Below, one piece after another: positions 42,003 to 51,768 of a stretch of DNA of 64,000 nt. The DNA comes from Pseudobutyrivibrio sp. (GTDB lineage Bacteria > Bacillota > Clostridia > Lachnospirales > Lachnospiraceae). Below the pieces are notes generated by a model. It searched no databases. It worked only from the letters and a program-made list of their open reading frames with translations, and had not been told where the DNA came from. The position numbers and the translations under genes were made by a program. The stretch lies in assembly GCA_024693775.1 (NCBI GenBank), contig JAILKL010000075.1, positions 1-64,000 of the forward strand. Reading direction: 5' to 3'. Positions within the stretch are counted from its first letter, which is position 1. Each line of letters starts with the position of its first letter.

Positions 42003-42524
42003 ATGAATTACAAAATTAGAGCTGCAAAGGTGGAGGATGCCACAGCTATTCATGATATTTATGGATACTATGCAGCAAACACCTTTATTACATTTACTGA
42101 AATAAATCCATCAGTTGCTGAATATGCTGATAGTATCACGGAGACACAGAAAAACTATCCATATTTGGTAGCATATGATGAAAATAATAAAATACTTGGC
42201 ATGGCATATGCTGGTCAGATTAGACATCACGATGCCTACAGATATTCTGTGGAGACTACTATTTATGTAGCTCCAGATGTGCCAAAGCACAGTGGAATTG
42301 GTTCTGCTTTATATGCGGAACTTGAAAAGCAATTATCTTACATGGGTTACAAATTCATGTATGGAGTTATTACAGATGACAATGAGGCAAGTATAGCCTT
42401 CCATAAAGCACTTGGATTTACCGAGGTTGGACATTTTACTGATATTGGTTACAAGTTTGGCCAGTGGAAGGGTATTGTTTGGTATAGAAAGCAGATAGGT
42501 GATCTATCTCAAATGAATAATTAG
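42003..42524 (+). CDS. GNAT family N-acetyltransferase
   Basis: IRAAKVEDATAIHDIYGYY...; HSGIGSALYAELEKQL; NEASIAFHKALGFTEVGHF. Confidence 0.92.
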   Translation: MNYKIRAAKVEDATAIHDIYGYYAANTFITFTEINPSVAEYADSITETQKNYPYLVAYDENNKILGMAYAGQIRHHDAYRYSVETTIYVAPDVPKHSGIGSALYAELEKQLSYMGYKFMYGVITDDNEASIAFHKALGFTEVGHFTDIGYKFGQWKGIVWYRKQIGDLSQMNN

Positions 42525-42535
42525 GAGTTTATGTT

Positions 42536-43537
42536 ATGAAAAAAGGGTTCAGGTATTTTTTTACCTCTGTCTTATCTATCTTTTTAACATTAATTGTTGT
42601 TTCAGTTATTTATATAGTCTGCGACAATGATTCAAAGGTAGATGTTGAAAAAGGACAGACCTACACCAGCGAAGAGGTAGAGGTAATGGTGGAGGATGCA
42701 AAGGAAGAGGGAAGACAGGGCCTTCTTGATCAGATCAGAACATCCCTTGAGGAGGGCAATCCTATCATCTCTATTTTAAAGGGATTTTATCCTGATTACA
42801 TAATTGTTGCTGCAAATAGCAAATACAATTTTATTCAGATTGATCATTCTCTTGCTATGAATAGCTACAATATTGACAACCTTACAGAAAATGAAAATGG
42901 TGTTTATCAGTATTCTGTTGATGGTGATGTTGTTTCTCACTTTGGTATAGATGTATCTTCGCACCAGGGTGATATTGATTGGCAGTCAGTTGCCGATTCT
43001 GGAGTAGAGTTTGCAATAATCAGAGCTGTGTATCGTGGATACGGTACAGGCAAGATTGTAGTAGATGAAAAATGTATCCAAAATATCGAGGGTGCCCAGG
43101 CCGCTGGAATAAAGGTTGGTGTTTATGTATTCTCACAGGCTATTACACAGGCAGAGGTTTTAGAGGAGGCATCTACTGTAAAAACACTATTAGAGGGCTA
43201 CACCTTAGATTTACCGGTTGTATTTGACGTAGAAAAGGTTACTGACAAATCAGGACGTATGAATCAGCTCACAGTTGATGAGCGTACAAATGTTACAAAG
43301 GCATTCCTTGAGGACATGGAAGCCTCTGGCTATGATACCATGATTTATCACAACACTGAAATGGGTGCAATGCTTTTAGATCTTTCTCAGTTAACTGAAT
43401 ACAAAAAATGGTTTGCAGGCTACAATAAAGAATTTTATTGGCCATATGAATTTGATGTATGGCAATATTCTGAATCTGGCAAGGTCAGTGGAATTGACGG
43501 AAATGTTGATTTTGATATTTGGCTTGGAGATTATTAG
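42536..43537 (+). CDS. GH25-type lysozyme, membrane anchored
   Basis: HFGIDVSSHQGDIDWQSVADSGVEFAIIRAVYRGYGTG; VVFDVEKVTD; KWFAGYN...FDVWQYSESGKVSGIDGNVDFD. Confidence 0.92.
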   Translation: MKKGFRYFFTSVLSIFLTLIVVSVIYIVCDNDSKVDVEKGQTYTSEEVEVMVEDAKEEGRQGLLDQIRTSLEEGNPIISILKGFYPDYIIVAANSKYNFIQIDHSLAMNSYNIDNLTENENGVYQYSVDGDVVSHFGIDVSSHQGDIDWQSVADSGVEFAIIRAVYRGYGTGKIVVDEKCIQNIEGAQAAGIKVGVYVFSQAITQAEVLEEASTVKTLLEGYTLDLPVVFDVEKVTDKSGRMNQLTVDERTNVTKAFLEDMEASGYDTMIYHNTEMGAMLLDLSQLTEYKKWFAGYNKEFYWPYEFDVWQYSESGKVSGIDGNVDFDIWLGDY

Positions 43538-43579: not shown

Positions 43580-44668
43580 TTATTTTAATAATATAGCTGC
43601 TAATTTATCATTGTCCTCAGGATTCATAAAACAGAATCTTATGTAATTTTCTCCAAGGTATGGGAAAGTAGAGCAATCGCGAATCATAAGACCTTCTTTG
43701 ATGCATCTATCAAATAATTCCTGACTGGTAAGACCATCCTCCATAATTTGTAGTAGCATGAAATTGCCTTGAGGCTTGTAAGGCTTAAATCTTGATGACT
43801 TTTTAAATAAGTCATACATTCGATTTCGCTCTGTTGTAATAAGCTTTCTAGTGGCCTCAATATATTCTGAATCGGAGAACATAATAGTGCCAGCCACAAC
43901 TGCAATTGAATTGATAGTCCATGGATCCTTGCGTCTATTCATGGTTTGCATCAAATCTGCATCTGAACAAATTGCATATCCCAAGCGAAGACCAGGAGCT
44001 GCAAAGAATTTGGATGTACCGCGCAAAATTACAATGTTTCCATAGGTTCTTGTAAGTGGAACAGAAGAGATTTCTTTGATGTTTTCAGCAAACTCAACGT
44101 AAGTCTCATCAACCATTACAAAAATATCGCATTCCTTGCATGCATCTAGAATTAGTCGCATGTCATGGTTATTTATAGCTGTTCCTGTTGGATTGTTTGG
44201 ATTACATATTACAAGTAAATCAATATCTTCAGAAAGCTTGGAAATAAAATGATTTACATCTAAAACGTAATCATTATCCTCCCTGAGAGGATAGTAGATG
44301 GTTTTGCCACCTCCCAATGAGATTTCTCTTTCATATTCGGAATATGTAGGCCCTAAAATCATTGCCTTTTTAGGCTCTTTAATTTGAATAAATAAAGAAA
44401 TTAGCTCTGTGGAGCCGTTTCCTACAATTATATTTTCAATTTCAGTATTGCAATAATCAGCTATGCTCTGACGTAGTGTCACATAATCTCTATCTGGATA
44501 TGTGGTAATGCAATCAATTTCACTAGCTATTTTTTCTCTAAGGCGAGGAGATATACCTAGTGGATTTACATTTGCAGAAAAGCTGATAATGTCTTCCTTT
44601 TTTATACCGTAAATCTTTTCTATTTTTTCCAAATCACTGCCGTGAAAATGGTCTTTATGCTTAATCAT
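43580..44668 (-). CDS. Histidinol-phosphate aminotransferase / CobD-like class I/II aminotransferase
   Basis: SFSANVNPLGISPRLREKI; CNPNNPTGT; VILRGTSKFFAAPGLRLGYAI; start corrected to ATG ending at 44668. Confidence 0.88.
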   Translation of the reverse strand: MIKHKDHFHGSDLEKIEKIYGIKKEDIISFSANVNPLGISPRLREKIASEIDCITTYPDRDYVTLRQSIADYCNTEIENIIVGNGSTELISLFIQIKEPKKAMILGPTYSEYEREISLGGGKTIYYPLREDNDYVLDVNHFISKLSEDIDLLVICNPNNPTGTAINNHDMRLILDACKECDIFVMVDETYVEFAENIKEISSVPLTRTYGNIVILRGTSKFFAAPGLRLGYAICSDADLMQTMNRRKDPWTINSIAVVAGTIMFSDSEYIEATRKLITTERNRMYDLFKKSSRFKPYKPQGNFMLLQIMEDGLTSQELFDRCIKEGLMIRDCSTFPYLGENYIRFCFMNPEDNDKLAAILLK

Positions 44669-44741
44669 GTCCCTGCCTCCTTGTCTTGCATGTAATTCTA
44701 TCACCACTGAATAAAAAATTCTATTATATAATCTATTTGAT

Positions 44742-44769
44742 TTCAAAACACAACATGTTGTGCTATAAT
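44742..44769 (+). promoter_or_regulatory. Putative promoter with embedded operator-like palindrome for the 44.8-51.7 kb operon
   Basis: TTCAAA (44742-44747) - 16 nt - TATAAT (44764-44769); perfect palindrome CACAACATGTTGTG at 44749-44762. Confidence 0.5.
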
Positions 44770-44816
44770 TTTTAGTGAATATCCTAGAATTAGTATGCGT
44801 AAAAGGGAGCATTGTT

Positions 44817-47800
44817 TTGAGAAAGAGAATCTATCGAATTTCCGAAGATAAATTCGACGACTTAAAACCTAATATAGAATTTGATTCTGAAGACATTCAG
44901 GAGACCTGCTTCATTGGAGAAGAATTCAAGGGCTCATTTTCATTCAAGAGCACTAATGAAGTAAACATGAAGGGTATTGTTTATTGTAACAATCCATACG
45001 TTACAATAGCAGATCCATGGTTTTCAGGAGAAAATGTTAGGATTGAGTATTCAGTCAATAATCTTAATTTTAAAGTTTCAGAGTATTTAGAGGGAATTTT
45101 TACGGTAATCTGTCCAGGTATCGAAAAAGAAATCCCATTCAAAATTACATACACAAAGCCATCTTTGGTAGTTTCCACTGGAGAAATACATTCATTAGAT
45201 GACTTTTCAAAGTTTGCACAATCTCGATTTTCAGAGGCTGTAGCATTGTTTTATTCTGACCGTTTTGCAGACTTTATTTCAGAATACGACAAAAAGACAC
45301 GCCTATTATATAGAGGCTTCAAGGGCGCACCTTTATCGGCAGTAAATGTAGACGAGTTTTTGGTAGCCTGTGGCCAAAAGGAGACCATGAACTTTGATCT
45401 ACCTCAGGAGACCAGACACTACTATGAGGTTGCAGAAAATATAAAGGGCGAGATTGAAATCACTAGAAATACTTGGGGTTATATCGACATCCATGTTCAG
45501 TCAGATGCGGATTTTGTATCTGTTGAAAAGGATTACATTACCGCCGATTTCTTCCTTGGCTCTATCTTCAATATGAATTATTACATTCACAAGGAAAAAA
45601 TGCATGCTGGTATGAATTATGCCCGCATTTCCTTTGATTATCGTGATATTCATAAAGAGATTATTATTATGGCCACTGCTGATAAGGAAGGTCTTGTTTT
45701 AGACAGCGTTTCTCACGAAAAAAACAAGCTGGTCCTTAAGCTATTCCGTAATTACGAAGAATTTAGACTTAGAAGAATCACAACAGGACAGTGGTGCAAG
45801 GATACAATGGACATCCTTGAAACCATAAATGACAATCCAGAAAATGAAAACTTCATTCTTCTTGTTCGCGCTCTACTTTTTATTACAAACAAGCAAAGAC
45901 AAGAGGCCTTATGGATTATTCAGGATCTAAAGCGCACCATAGAAGATAAGCGCAGTACAGAATGGGCGTTCTTGCTTTATTTATGCACATTAATAGAGCC
46001 TGAGGAATCCTACGTAGATAGACTGACAGACAATATTGAAACTATTTTCAAGGAACACCCTGATGATATTAATATTTTCTGGTTCTTATTATTCCTTAGA
46101 AAGGAATATTTAAAGAATCCATCTGCAAAGCTTAGAGATATTGCTGAGTGGGTTGAGTCAGGCAACGAAACACCGCTTTTATTTATAGAGGCTTATTATA
46201 TATATTTACAGGACACTTATCTAATTAATACTTTTGATGATTTTACATTAAAGGTATTAGGCTGGGCCAAGAAACGTGGAGCCATTACAAAGGACATTGC
46301 CATTCAGATGATTCATGTTCTTGAATCAGAAAGAGTGTACAATCCAAAGGCTTTCGAAATCCTAGAGGCTTGCTACGAGGTTTATCCTGATTTACAGCTT
46401 TTATTTGGCATAGTTACTTATATTCTAAAGGCGGAGACCTCAGAGGAAAAATTCCTCAAATGGTACCGCATGGCTATAGAATCAAATCTTCATATCTCTG
46501 GTATTTTTGAAGCCTATATGAATGCCTTGCCTACTCAGTCTGTAGATAGATTACCTCAGCTTGTTACTATGTTTTTCAAATATAACAACGAGCTTACAGC
46601 CGATAGAAAGGCTCTTTTATATGCCAATATTATTTTGCACAAGGATGAGGATCCAGAGACCTACAATGATTACGAGCGCACCATAGAGACCTTCGCATTA
46701 GAGCAGCTCAAGTTTGGTAGACTAGATGACAATCTTGCTATTTGTTATCAGTGCCTTATGGATATGGGCATTTTCGATAATGAGGTGGCAAAACGTATTT
46801 CCGAATTAGTATTCAAGAAAAAGATTGCGGTTATTTCACCTACCATCAGACGAGTTATCCTATACCAGGATGAGTTCAAGGGGCCTACAACGGCGCCAGT
46901 CATAGATCATCAGGCATATATTAATTACGTTGGCACTGAGGGTGTTATATTTCTTGAAAACAAAGAGGGCTATTTGATTGCAGATGAAAATGGCTATTTG
47001 GTCGAGGAGATTTTAGCCTCTGAAAACCATATAGAAAAGCTTCATGAGCTTTCACCAGATACATTTTCATTTGTTTTAGAGGATATCAATAAAAAGAACG
47101 ACATTACTGATTTTACAGCCGACGATGTGAAGGGGGCCATAACTTTACTGCATTCTCCACTTATTTCAGAAGAGTACAGAAACAGCTTATATCCAAAGCT
47201 AATTGAGTTTATGCGCATTCAAAATCAAGAAGAGGTTCTTGAACAGCATTTTATGGAAGAGGCTGATCTAAAGCTTTTATCAGAGAATATTATTGCAGAG
47301 GTTATTGATTTATTTATTTCTCGGGGAAAATATGATGAAGCTTATTATATGATGCAGCACACAAATGCTAGATGTCTAAAGCTGGACGCTGCCACAAGAC
47401 TTTGCCAGCATTTAATCAGCAAAGAGACCACAGAAACAGATGATTTCCTTATCACACTTACTGCAGACTTGGTATCTAGAGGCTCAGTAAATAATGATAT
47501 GGTCTATTATTTAGTTCAGCACTACGTTGGCCCTACAAAGACCATGATGGTTATTTATAAAAATGCCTATGAAAAGGGCGGAGATGTTGTAGAATTTGCG
47601 GAGCGTATACTTATCCAGTGTCTTTACAGAGATTTCCTTTGTGAGGACATTATTACAGTATTTGATTCCTATATGGCCAGAAAGCACAACAGAATGGTTG
47701 TGGAGGCCTTCCTTACCTACGAAGCCCACGATTATCTTGTTAATGGCGCAGATATTCCAGAGAGAGTTTTTGCTTACATTTTCAATCGTTTTTCAAAGGC

Positions 47801-48353
47801 TCAGTCAGTAAACGAAAGCATGCGAATTGCATTACTCAAATTCCTATGTCTAGAGGAAACCCTAGACGAGGAGGAAGAGGATATGTTAGATATGCTTATG
47901 GGCGATTCCATCATTAGAAATCAATACTTTGGTTTCATGAAGAATTGCAACTCAAAGCTAAAAATTAAATATCATCTTTATGATAAATATTTCGTTGAAT
48001 ATAGAGGCGAAAAGAGAGCATATATTTCTATCAATTATTCTATTAATGGCTCTGAGGAAAAGACAGAGGATATGATAGAAATGTATGATGGCTATTATGT
48101 AAAACAATTTATTCTATTCTTCGGAGATGAGCTTAAATATCAAATTATTGACGAGGGCAATCCATCAGAGCCACTTGTTTCAAAGGAATATACACGTGGA
48201 GATGATGTGGATGACAATATCGGCGGTAGATTCCAGATGATGAACGATATAAAGCGTCACAAAATCTACAACGAGCAAGAAGAATTAGTTAGAGATTTAA
48301 AGAAATATCAGGGACTTAATGTTGTCGCTGATGAATTATTTACTATTATCTAA
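44817..48353 (+). CDS. Large uncharacterised protein (DUF5717-like): N-terminal beta-sandwich-like region and long alpha-helical repeat region
   Basis: TTG start after aaaagggagc; about 1178 aa; family name from memory of Lachnospiraceae annotations. Confidence 0.7.
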   Translation: MRKRIYRISEDKFDDLKPNIEFDSEDIQETCFIGEEFKGSFSFKSTNEVNMKGIVYCNNPYVTIADPWFSGENVRIEYSVNNLNFKVSEYLEGIFTVICPGIEKEIPFKITYTKPSLVVSTGEIHSLDDFSKFAQSRFSEAVALFYSDRFADFISEYDKKTRLLYRGFKGAPLSAVNVDEFLVACGQKETMNFDLPQETRHYYEVAENIKGEIEITRNTWGYIDIHVQSDADFVSVEKDYITADFFLGSIFNMNYYIHKEKMHAGMNYARISFDYRDIHKEIIIMATADKEGLVLDSVSHEKNKLVLKLFRNYEEFRLRRITTGQWCKDTMDILETINDNPENENFILLVRALLFITNKQRQEALWIIQDLKRTIEDKRSTEWAFLLYLCTLIEPEESYVDRLTDNIETIFKEHPDDINIFWFLLFLRKEYLKNPSAKLRDIAEWVESGNETPLLFIEAYYIYLQDTYLINTFDDFTLKVLGWAKKRGAITKDIAIQMIHVLESERVYNPKAFEILEACYEVYPDLQLLFGIVTYILKAETSEEKFLKWYRMAIESNLHISGIFEAYMNALPTQSVDRLPQLVTMFFKYNNELTADRKALLYANIILHKDEDPETYNDYERTIETFALEQLKFGRLDDNLAICYQCLMDMGIFDNEVAKRISELVFKKKIAVISPTIRRVILYQDEFKGPTTAPVIDHQAYINYVGTEGVIFLENKEGYLIADENGYLVEEILASENHIEKLHELSPDTFSFVLEDINKKNDITDFTADDVKGAITLLHSPLISEEYRNSLYPKLIEFMRIQNQEEVLEQHFMEEADLKLLSENIIAEVIDLFISRGKYDEAYYMMQHTNARCLKLDAATRLCQHLISKETTETDDFLITLTADLVSRGSVNNDMVYYLVQHYVGPTKTMMVIYKNAYEKGGDVVEFAERILIQCLYRDFLCEDIITVFDSYMARKHNRMVVEAFLTYEAHDYLVNGADIPERVFAYIFNRFSKAQSVNESMRIALLKFLCLEETLDEEEEDMLDMLMGDSIIRNQYFGFMKNCNSKLKIKYHLYDKYFVEYRGEKRAYISINYSINGSEEKTEDMIEMYDGYYVKQFILFFGDELKYQIIDEGNPSEPLVSKEYTRGDDVDDNIGGRFQMMNDIKRHKIYNEQEELVRDLKKYQGLNVVADELFTII

Positions 48354-48361
48354 GGAGTACT

Positions 48362-49600
48362 ATGAGCAATCAAGATGGTGCATATTTAGGCGTAGACATT
48401 AGCGCAAAAAGCACAGTTTTAAGTGTATACAAATCAAATATGGATGAGCCTTCTACGGTTAGCACAATTCTTGGTCAAGAAAATTTTACTATACCCACAG
48501 CCTTGGCCAAAAGAATAGGCATGGGACAATGGTTTTTTGGTGATGAGGCCATTAAAAAGAGTAAGTCTAAGGAAGCCGTGCTTGTGGATGATTTATACAA
48601 CAAGGCTAGAGATAATGAATCTATCTATATCGACGGCGAGAGCTATGCGGCCAGAGAATTGCTAGTGATTTATTTCAAAAAGCTATTTTCCATTCCTGGT
48701 CCAATGGCAGCTATTTCTTCCATTGAAAAGCTGGTTATCTGCGTCGAGACAATTTCATTAGAAGTAATGGAATTGATGAATTTTATTGCTTCTAGATTAA
48801 ATATCTCCTCTGATAATCTTATGCTTTTAGATAGAAGAGAAAGCTTTTACTACTATGCTTTATCCCAAAAGCCCGAGTTGTTTTTATACAATGTAGCTCT
48901 TTTTGATTACAGTGGCACTAATATGGTATCTTGCGTTTTATCTAGAAATCAAAATACAAGACCACAAATTATATCTTTAGATGTCATTAACCATGGTGAG
49001 CTTGATGATAATCATGATCAGAGCTTTGACAGAATTATTTCTGATACCTTCGGCTCTACATTGTTCTCTTGCGTTTATCTTGTGGGAGATGGCTTCGATG
49101 GTCAATGGATGAAGGAAAGCCTTACTCACCTTTGCCGTGGCAGAAAGGTTTACCTTGGCAAAAACCTTTATTCAAAGGGGGCTTGCTACGCCGGATTAAT
49201 CAAATCCACAGATAAGGATTGGCCATTTATTTATATTGGTGACAATGATTTAAAGCTAAATCTATCCATAAAGATTTTGGATAACAATGAGATGAAATTT
49301 TTGACACTCATTGACGCAGGACAGAGCTGGTATGACGCAAACGGAGAGTGTGAGGTCATTCTCGACGGTGATCCAGAAATAGAATTCTATATTCAAAAGC
49401 CAGAATCCAGAGAGGCTCATATAGAGCTTTTGGAGCTGACTGATATTCCGAAAAACCGTGAAAACAGAACTACTAGACTTAGAATAGAAGCATCACCTAT
49501 TTCTGATGTGGCTATTTCAATTACTATTACAGATTTGGGCTTTGGAGAGATTTCTCCATCCTCTGGTCTCACCTGGGATCATACTATTTCATTAAAGTAG
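48362..49600 (+). CDS. Hsp70/ASKHA-like ATPase (DUF5716-like)
   Basis: phosphate-1-like AYLGVDISAKSTVLSVY, phosphate-2-like VALFDYSGTNMVSCVL, adenosine-like VYLVGDGFDGQWM, YSKGACYAGL; C-terminal IELLELTDIPKNRENRTTRLRIEASPISDVAISITI resembles the Hsp70 beta-SBD. Confidence 0.7.
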   Translation: MSNQDGAYLGVDISAKSTVLSVYKSNMDEPSTVSTILGQENFTIPTALAKRIGMGQWFFGDEAIKKSKSKEAVLVDDLYNKARDNESIYIDGESYAARELLVIYFKKLFSIPGPMAAISSIEKLVICVETISLEVMELMNFIASRLNISSDNLMLLDRRESFYYYALSQKPELFLYNVALFDYSGTNMVSCVLSRNQNTRPQIISLDVINHGELDDNHDQSFDRIISDTFGSTLFSCVYLVGDGFDGQWMKESLTHLCRGRKVYLGKNLYSKGACYAGLIKSTDKDWPFIYIGDNDLKLNLSIKILDNNEMKFLTLIDAGQSWYDANGECEVILDGDPEIEFYIQKPESREAHIELLELTDIPKNRENRTTRLRIEASPISDVAISITITDLGFGEISPSSGLTWDHTISLK

Positions 49601-49607
49601 GTATTTT

Positions 49608-50438
49608 ATGAGCACATTGATTTATTGCAAAAATTCCATAGCGGCTTCTCCCTATTACATCGAAGAGGCATCTTTAAATGTTTATTCCTTAGAAGAGCTT
49701 AGCTACTTTATTTTGAACAACGTATATTTGTTGTCAAACAAGCTAGAGTCTGTTGAATTATGCAATTGGATAGGGAGAGAGCTAAAGCAAAAAAAGCTTT
49801 CTGAGGACTTGATGAATCTGGTTCAAAGCAATGCACCTTTACATATTTTTGTGGGACATATTTTGGCTTCAAACGGATATGCTTCACCAAAGGAAATAAA
49901 GGATTTGTTGTCCATCATAGCAACCTTTGAAAACAAATCAGAATCAGAGCGCAAAAAAATGCGTGCCGACAGATTAATGAAATCTGGAAAATACGTAGAT
50001 GCCATATATGAATACGAAACCCTACTATCTGAGGATGTGGTAAAAACCATGTCAAAAACTGTTGAAGGTGATGTTTATCACAATTTAGGCTGCGCATTTG
50101 CAAAATTATTTTTATTTGATGAAGCTGTAAAAAGCTTTGATGAAGCCTATAAGAAAAATCAAAAAAAGCAATCCTTGTATTGCCTACTATATTCCATTAG
50201 ATGTATGGGCGATAAAGAGCTTTTTGATTCATATATAGCAAAATATCAGGTATCACCTGAATATGTAGAGGATGTTAGAGAAATAGTAAAAAATGCAACA
50301 GTAAAGGACGAGATTTTATCCTTCAATCAATCCATCCAATCACTTGTAAAAGAAGGGGACAATGATAGATTTTCACAGGTGGTTGCAAAGGTAATCGATG
50401 GTTGGAAGGACGAGTATATAAAGACCTGTAGAATCTAA
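49608..50438 (+). CDS. TPR-containing protein
   Basis: DVYHNLGCAFAKLFLFDEAVKSFDEAYKKN TPR motif; preceding ADRLMKSGKYVDAIYEYETLL. Confidence 0.65.
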   Translation: MSTLIYCKNSIAASPYYIEEASLNVYSLEELSYFILNNVYLLSNKLESVELCNWIGRELKQKKLSEDLMNLVQSNAPLHIFVGHILASNGYASPKEIKDLLSIIATFENKSESERKKMRADRLMKSGKYVDAIYEYETLLSEDVVKTMSKTVEGDVYHNLGCAFAKLFLFDEAVKSFDEAYKKNQKKQSLYCLLYSIRCMGDKELFDSYIAKYQVSPEYVEDVREIVKNATVKDEILSFNQSIQSLVKEGDNDRFSQVVAKVIDGWKDEYIKTCRI

Positions 50439-50465
50439 ATAATTGAGTTATGAGGGGATAATGCA

Positions 50466-51698
50466 ATGGGGATTTTTACTAGACGAAAAACAAAAAAGGA
50501 ATTGCGAGCAGCCAAAATAGATGATGCTTTTAACAGGGTTTATTCTCAAATAGACAATATTGAATCCTGGGAAGATCCCAAAAAACTAGAGCATTATATT
50601 TTGGATTCCTGTGAGCAAATCATTGCCTCCACCAAGGAGATGGAACGTCAAAAAACAGAGTATCGTATAGTGACCACATATCTAAACGATATTAAAAAAA
50701 TAGAAAACCTTCCAAGAGATGAGGCAAAAGAGCTAAGAAATACCGCCTCTCGTATTCTAGAGCTGGAGCATTCTATTTTGACCACTAAAAATGTTCAGCG
50801 CAATATTTCAGAAGAGCAGTTTGAGGTGATTTCTGCTGACGAAGCCACCATGGCTGAAATTATTAATCGTTTTGCATCAGATGAAATATATCAAGCAAAG
50901 CTTAAAAAGAATCTGGCCTATATGGAAGGCGAAAAGAGCAGATGGGAAATAGAGCGAGAATTACTTAGTACTCAAAATAAAGCATTGAAGCGTAGTGCTT
51001 TGATTCTTACCACCAGCTTTATGGCATTTATTCTATTTCTTGCCATAATTATTATTTCCACTAAGGCAGATTTGTCTGGTCTATTGTTTGCATTATTCTT
51101 TTTATGTGCACTAGGCGGATTTTTGATTTTTCTTCGTCAAAATGGTATTCGAAAGGAAAACCATGAAGCTATTGTCCGATTAAATCAATCTATTAGCATG
51201 TTAAATGTAGAACGAATGAAATTTGTAAATGTTACAAATGGAATCGAATATCAAAAGGACAAGTATCATGTACATAATTCTGCAGAGCTACAATACGTAT
51301 GGGAGCAATACATTGATAAAATAAAGGATCAGCAGCGCTACATTAAAAATAACGAGGATTTAGAATTTTATAGCAGCAAGCTAGAGCGAATCCTTGAGGG
51401 TATCGGATTAAATGATGATAAGATTTGGATGAATCAAATCAACGCTTTAATCAACAAAGAGGATATGAGCGAATGTAGGCACAGACTTGTGCTAAGACGT
51501 CAAAAAATTCGTGATAGAATGGATGATAACAGACGTATTATTCAAGGTGAGAGAGACGAAATTGAGAGAATGATGACAGCCCACGACCATTACTTGCCAG
51601 AAATAAAAGAGATTATAAAATCAGTGGACAAGCTTTGTGGCACTCATGCCAGCAGCAATGTAGTGCTTATGAATAATCATAAAAATATAGGTTTTTGA
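50466..51698 (+). CDS. Coiled-coil membrane protein of unknown function
   Basis: Charged helical N-terminus, two TM helices (ALILTTSFMAFILFLAIIII; LLFALFFLCALGGFLIFL), long charged helical C-terminus; same operon. Confidence 0.6.
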   Translation: MGIFTRRKTKKELRAAKIDDAFNRVYSQIDNIESWEDPKKLEHYILDSCEQIIASTKEMERQKTEYRIVTTYLNDIKKIENLPRDEAKELRNTASRILELEHSILTTKNVQRNISEEQFEVISADEATMAEIINRFASDEIYQAKLKKNLAYMEGEKSRWEIERELLSTQNKALKRSALILTTSFMAFILFLAIIIISTKADLSGLLFALFFLCALGGFLIFLRQNGIRKENHEAIVRLNQSISMLNVERMKFVNVTNGIEYQKDKYHVHNSAELQYVWEQYIDKIKDQQRYIKNNEDLEFYSSKLERILEGIGLNDDKIWMNQINALINKEDMSECRHRLVLRRQKIRDRMDDNRRIIQGERDEIERMMTAHDHYLPEIKEIIKSVDKLCGTHASSNVVLMNNHKNIGF

Positions 51699-51740: not shown

Positions 51741-51768
51741 AAAGCCGATGCTATTAAGCATCGGCTTT
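51741..51768. terminator. Bidirectional terminator
   Basis: aaagccgatgc-tattaa-gcatcggcttt. Confidence 0.85.

Follow-up and report, generated by a model that had tools for sequence, protein, structure and literature searches.

What does an operon do that places a relative of Hsp70 between a giant helical-repeat protein and a tetratricopeptide repeat (TPR) protein, and whose first two genes belong to Pfam families with no function attached to their entries? The question is raised by positions 44817–51698 of the window analysed here, a 64,000-nucleotide (nt) stretch of contig JAILKL010000075.1 from Pseudobutyrivibrio sp. (family Lachnospiraceae), where four open reading frames (ORFs) follow one another on the + strand with gaps of 8, 7 and 27 nt:

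44817–48353, + strand: gene 1, ORF with a TTG start, 1178 amino acids (aa), DUF5717_N and DUF5717
48362–49600, + strand: gene 2, ORF of 412 aa, DUF5716, a pseudo-Hsp70 without a lid
49608–50438, + strand: gene 3, ORF of 276 aa, an N-terminal conserved region (YSLEELSY motif) and TPRs
50466–51698, + strand: gene 4, ORF of 410 aa, helical, with a transmembrane (TM) hairpin at about 174–224, optional

An earlier note on this DNA, made from the sequence alone, had placed the four ORFs and their gaps as we find them, had given the names DUF5717 and DUF5716, which the Pfam scores below bear out, and had read the set as an Hsp70-like ATPase switch within an envelope-associated chaperone or scaffold machine specific to Lachnospiraceae. 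The searchable literature yielded no paper on DUF5717, DUF5716 or the operon. As judged by sequence comparison, the operon is the Lachnospiraceae form, reduced in this family, of an Hsp70-derived multi-gene system that extends across the order.

Gene 2 is a member of DUF5716 by score (DUF5716_C, PF18980: E 3e-98, 329 bits versus a gathering cut-off of 34.7). A search of the PDB with the profile of the gene 2 family (hmmsearch) retrieved DnaK with an E of 2e-6 and a second weak stretch in the β part of the substrate-binding domain (SBDβ); profile–profile alignment (hhalign) placed gene 2 colinear with DnaK 2–468 (E 6.6e-8); and the AF2 model of gene 2 (pLDDT 90.4, pTM 0.78) has DnaK as its top Foldseek match (E 2.9e-18), with a TM-score of about 0.5 across both domains and with lid-less Hsp70s also among the matches. 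Because hmmsearch, profile–profile alignment and Foldseek agree on DnaK, we conclude that gene 2 is an Hsp70 relative along its full length, made of a nucleotide-binding domain and SBDβ and devoid of a lid: the protein ends after SBDβ, and the alignment columns of the helical lid (SBDα) are nearly empty. A kinship with MreB/actin was rejected, there being no profile–profile match to MreB. The closest named relative found, Pseudobutyrivibrio ruminis, shows 77% identity in gene 2, same-species records possibly lying outside the search.

The Hsp70 kinship proposed in the earlier note thus stands, but the ATPase and the switch find no support. The gene 2 counterparts of K70, E171, T199 and D201 are not conserved, the GTTN and GGGT phosphate loops are variable, and D194 is retained in 64 of 123 DUF5716 sequences. 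Moreover, the segment running from phosphate 2 to adenosine (D194–G341) spans 59–79 residues rather than the 140–143 of DnaK, and therefore subdomain IIB is gone; none of the 60 family members compared retains it. A gene 2 protein that hydrolyses ATP and is linked to helical-repeat clients and to a membrane anchor would fit with its Hsp70 fold and colinearity with DnaK, with the first Asp (phosphate-1 motif, D12), kept in 113 of the 123 sequences, and with the active appearance of three paralogs found in sister families (HspA, HspC and HspD, see below). However, nearly all the catalytic residues and IIB are lost, so that an ATP-driven switch is unlikely on sequence grounds; the loss from the family of a dedicated GrpE-like factor argues in the same direction, and altogether we regard this explanation as improbable.

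Ssz1, the Hsp70 of the ribosome-associated complex, is not known to need ATP hydrolysis. It resembles gene 2 in being a non-canonical, lid-less Hsp70 within a complex and is among the Foldseek matches (6sr6, 5mb9). The two differ in that the partner of Ssz1 is a J-protein on the ribosome, whereas gene 2 is accompanied by an Ig-like/solenoid scaffold along with a TPR protein, and in that gene 2 has its subdomain IIB deleted.

Is the system confined to Lachnospiraceae, as the earlier note had it and as PF18984 suggested at the class scale? An order-level search overturned this restriction: DUF5717 occurs in 95 of 196 genomes, 73 of them outside Lachnospiraceae. When Hsp70 genes were sought in a set that took in other families of the order, Hsp70 clusters appeared beside gene 1 homologs, and a comparison of 39 loci from these sister families uncovered, in many of the families, an expanded version of the operon, with eight or nine genes and four Hsp70s. 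Its full arrangement runs as follows:

Start: N-terminal part of gene 1 (about 400 aa), C-terminal part of gene 1 (about 900 aa), HspA (about 559 aa)
Middle: a protein of 565–645 aa with a GrpE domain at its end, HspB (456–565 aa), HspC (about 546 aa)
End: HspD (about 693 aa, carrying a VWA domain at its C-terminus), a TPR protein longer than gene 3 and, where present (eight loci), gene 4

All four Hsp70 genes are intact ORFs in 21 sister loci, and HspD is split across two frames in locus L260. The GrpE domain of the 565–645-aa protein (c2) was matched with E 4e-12 and 3e-13 (46.4 and 50.1 bits versus a Pfam cut-off of 25.8). D8, K70, E171, D194, T199, D201 and the phosphate loops are intact in 21 of 21 sequences for each of HspA, HspC and HspD, the exceptions among the sites examined being N13, replaced by H in two HspC, S343, replaced by T in two HspA, and the N170 position, which differs in all three proteins. 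HspB retains D8, D194 and G341, with a D194–G341 spacing of 132–152, and has lost K70, E171, T199 and D201. Judging from these residues, HspA, HspC and HspD are apparently ATP-competent and HspB is apparently a pseudo-ATPase. In a tree of the Hsp70s, DUF5716 groups with HspB, while HspA, HspC, HspD and DnaK form separate clades; the exact branching is unsure because of long branches, and the operon position agrees with DUF5716 being the probable HspB ortholog. Among the operon proteins scanned, which included part of the sister-locus ORFs, there was no J-domain gene. A large gene recurs downstream of the sister loci and would, from its length and N-terminus, be that of valyl-tRNA synthetase. 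Separately, a genus relative carries a distinct cluster (L265:7466–10938, − strand) in which a 574-aa Hsp70-like gene is followed by a 577-aa gene with a J-domain-like N-terminus.

Compared with the DnaK–GrpE pair (PF00012, PF01025), the likeness thus lies in the colinearity of gene 2 with the DnaK nucleotide-binding domain and SBDβ and in the association, in the sister operons, of three catalytically intact Hsp70s with a GrpE-domain protein. The differences lie in the presence there of four distinct paralogs, none with a recognisable classical lid, in the size of the GrpE-domain protein (about 565–645 aa) and, in the family of the window, in an Hsp70 without catalytic residues and without the GrpE-binding lobe. 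The Hsp70–GrpE–TPR composition of the ancestral operon lends support to the idea, already present in the earlier note, of a chaperone or scaffold machine of some kind.

How do the expanded and the short forms relate? G706, which the gene 1 tree places as sister to Lachnospiraceae, has all the parts, with a GrpE-like gene shortened to 279 aa and an HspB that retains the IIB spacing (139 from D194 to G341); HspB lost its catalytic residues while IIB was still present. A search of the 120 family genomes for the GrpE-like gene gave no relative over its full length, only the ends of proteins of ordinary GrpE size. Since G706 retains the parts and the 120 family genomes lack the GrpE-like gene, the exchange factor, its presumed contact lobe and, in the loci examined, the three apparently ATP-competent Hsp70s were lost in the Lachnospiraceae lineage, the loss of the GrpE-like gene seemingly accompanying that of the GrpE-binding lobe (IIB). 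The comparison suggests that the Lachnospiraceae operon is a streamlined remnant of a larger, multi-Hsp70 operon.

The remnant is widespread. Of 120 Lachnospiraceae genera sampled, 117 carry DUF5716_C, as do 97 of the 100 family genomes with a completeness of at least 90%, and it was absent from the genomes of other families (about 295) in a phylum sample; one of the three genera without it, G098, carries gene 1 at a contig end. The conservation of the gene neighbourhood across the family, a check put forward in the earlier note, is borne out: genes 1, 2 and 3 stand together in this order in 60 of 61 loci, and genes 1 and 2 adjoin in order in 80 of 80 named loci, followed, barring contig ends, by gene 3 and in most cases gene 4. 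The operon is conserved in more than 100 genera and is therefore not a chance assembly; within the family the system is near-universal, single-copy and vertically distributed. The exception among the 61 loci is L045 (8547–9773, − strand), where gene 2 stands alone with genes 1 and 3 not nearby; it belongs to a small genome (G020, 67% complete) in which genes 1 and 4 were not found genome-wide.

This distribution bears on a further explanation, namely a biological conflict or defence system. The nearest published composition to the sister operon is that of the GAP1-N2/Hsp70/GrpE conflict operons, in which Hsp70 and GrpE occur together with an additional, reduced Hsp70 and with FNIII/TPR or DnaJ proteins, and NTP-dependent conflict systems are built on a core MoxR AAA+ or TRAFAC GTPase plus an effector (Kaur et al. 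2020, eLife, PMC7159879). The parts are indeed similar: Hsp70 and GrpE, a second Hsp70 whose domains are reduced, TPRs, and VWA in related themes. However, the GAP1-N2 systems are GTPase-centred, and there was no GTPase, MoxR or toxin-like effector among the operon proteins scanned here; the system described here has four Hsp70s and DUF5717, and a family-wide vertical distribution. It is near-universal and single-copy rather than patchy, its chromosomal synteny is kept across the order, and PADLOC gave no match for genes 1–4 and weak matches only to the sister Hsp70 and TPR parts. Universality, synteny and the PADLOC result weaken the case for a conflict system, which we consider very improbable.

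What would hold such a complex together? Gene 1 is the candidate scaffold. It lies far above the Pfam gathering cut-offs for both DUF5717_N (E 3e-221; PF18984, 737 bits versus 25) and the C-terminal DUF5717 (E 9e-78; PF18983, 262 versus 25). Its structure model (pLDDT 86.9, pTM 0.60) displays the β-rich N-terminus and helical solenoid that the earlier note had described: two Ig-like β domains (about 20–120 and 195–286; 'Ig-like' from fold matches), a TPR-like α solenoid (298–1050) with an inserted β unit (667–731), and a β domain at the C-terminus (1057–1126). The fold matches are all partial: some extend over about 280–300 residues in chains from structures of the axonemal central pair, others are to TPR-type solenoids, Ski3, Ctr9 and OGT among them; at the level of the model they are resemblances, and we claim no kinship. 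BamD, the sole PDB sequence match (E 0.03), was rejected; a sensitive gene 1 profile gave no convincing relative outside the order, and the weak partial matches of a wider solenoid profile there, mostly to proteins of about 300 aa, were judged to be generic repeats. By comparison with the sister families, where its halves are separate genes in most loci, two ancestral proteins are joined in gene 1. The halves were fused in the Lachnospiraceae stem and at least twice elsewhere, and this recurrence suggests that they act as one unit; note that an apparent split in L313 is a contig end, not a real split.

Gene 3 matches the Pfam TPR family (E 2e-7), in line with the TPRs noticed earlier, and genes 2 and 3 form a single ORF in four genera, through at least two separate events. 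Gene 4 was assigned no Pfam family by the scan, and its PDB matches were dismissed as coiled-coil noise. Two hydrophobic segments, the two-TM hairpin of the earlier note, are found in 75 of 86 gene 4 homologs. With marginal hits excluded, gene 4 occurs in 53 of 120 genera, adjoining gene 2 whenever both are on the same contig, and its history in the family comprises at least eight gains or losses; it is an optional component. Genes 1–3 have no consistent TM segment, so that an association with the envelope is suggested by gene 4 alone. One gene 4 homolog, in Lachnospiraceae bacterium C7 (L164:12129–15032), reaches 967 aa through a long, highly charged C-terminal extension. In 14 sister loci, another TM-bearing family of 313–482 aa (cluster c5, e.g. 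L262:2709–3650) lies directly upstream of gene 1; it never co-occurs with gene 4 (eight loci) and may be an alternative membrane partner, a pattern that could merely track clades.

Could the assembly be a structural scaffold with no chaperone activity, in which the Hsp70 fold merely mediates protein–protein contacts, in the manner of FtsA or PilM-like proteins, and organises the giant scaffold near the membrane, for instance in envelope growth or division? The lost catalytic residues of gene 2, the large Ig-like and solenoid protein, the two-TM partner that 53 of the 120 genera possess and the near-universal, single-copy, vertical distribution are all compatible with it. However, the three catalytically intact Hsp70s and the GrpE-like factor of the ancestral operon point to client cycling, SBDβ is retained throughout, the membrane gene is dispensable, and the recurrent flanks identified around the operon are mostly metabolic rather than division genes. 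A purely structural role appears less likely, though not remote.

The explanation we favour, with about an even chance of being right, is that the operon preserves the core of a dedicated complex, derived from Hsp70 and serving client binding or assembly, that works without ATP cycling in Lachnospiraceae. We infer that the proteins form a complex and that the remnant binds or positions clients without such cycling. Ancestrally, three ATP-competent Hsp70 paralogs, all devoid of a classical lid and one with VWA in its place, would have acted on clients jointly with a fourth Hsp70, a pseudo-ATPase. A dedicated exchange factor of the GrpE type, an adaptor with TPRs and the Ig-like and solenoid scaffold would have worked with them, and in some lineages the membrane coiled-coil protein as well. 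In the Lachnospiraceae form, the ATP-driven Hsp70s and the exchange factor would be gone and the scaffold halves fused as gene 1; gene 2, retaining its β domain of the peptide-binding type, would probably dock on the TPR protein encoded by gene 3, and the complex would serve as a holdase or assembly scaffold, binding or positioning clients without ATP hydrolysis, tethered to the membrane by gene 4 where present. Somewhat more tentatively, we propose that four paralogous Hsp70s (three apparently active, one of these with VWA; one pseudo-ATPase) and a GrpE-like factor on a single Ig-like/solenoid scaffold constitute an undescribed hetero-oligomeric assembly device, which later became an ATP-independent, near-universal Lachnospiraceae core.

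Several observations weigh against this explanation. Two of the 120 genera, G029 and G091, seem truly to lack the system, which is therefore not absolutely indispensable. In sister genomes, the parts are non-adjacent or on separate contigs in L287, L303, L310, L311 and L315, and those of G707 are split across two contigs; the operon is therefore not obligatory. Within Lachnospiraceae, HspA, HspC and HspD are absent from the loci examined, Hsp70s in general having been surveyed in the genus of the window only. Finally, since D12 is retained in most DUF5716 sequences and the GxGF motif is conserved, gene 2 may bind nucleotide without hydrolysing it.

The operon is framed in the window by two putative control sites:

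44742–44769, + strand: promoter-like site, TTCAAA-16-TATAAT, with the 14-bp palindrome CACAACATGTTGTG in the spacer
51741–51768, no strand assigned: terminator-like intrinsic hairpin, strong and bidirectional, 12-bp stem, at the operon end

Pseudobutyrivibrio relatives conserve the promoter region as well as the TTG start of gene 1. The palindrome (44749–44762) is perfect over its 14 bp, and its form is kept genus-wide (16 loci) between diverging flanks. Seven genus genomes each contain a single copy of the exact element; a regulon was accordingly rejected, and autoregulation or one dedicated regulator may be involved. An Rfam scan gave no match near the operon. Divergent from the operon, a CobD/HisC-like aminotransferase gene (43580–44812, − strand) is an unusually stable neighbour, homologs flanking the operon in 24 of the 61 Lachnospiraceae loci and in 17 loci of the sister families; its link to the operon is not obvious. 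Further upstream lie a GNAT acetyltransferase gene (42003–42524, + strand; ArsN1 family B-like, E 4e-48, under the family cut-off) and, after it, a GH25 lysozyme-type gene (42536–43537).

Lachnospiraceae are among the most abundant bacteria of the human and ruminant gut, and this operon is one of their near-universal gene sets lacking an assigned function. What is new here is the identity of DUF5716 as a pseudo-Hsp70, the origin of DUF5717 from two partner proteins, and the multi-Hsp70 operon itself. The comparison traces a path of reduction in which the exchange factor, its lobe and catalysis would have disappeared in one lineage while the scaffold, the TPR protein and the domain of the client-binding type were kept, and it provides a testable hypothesis, in culturable species, on the role that Hsp70 parts may play without ATP cycling.

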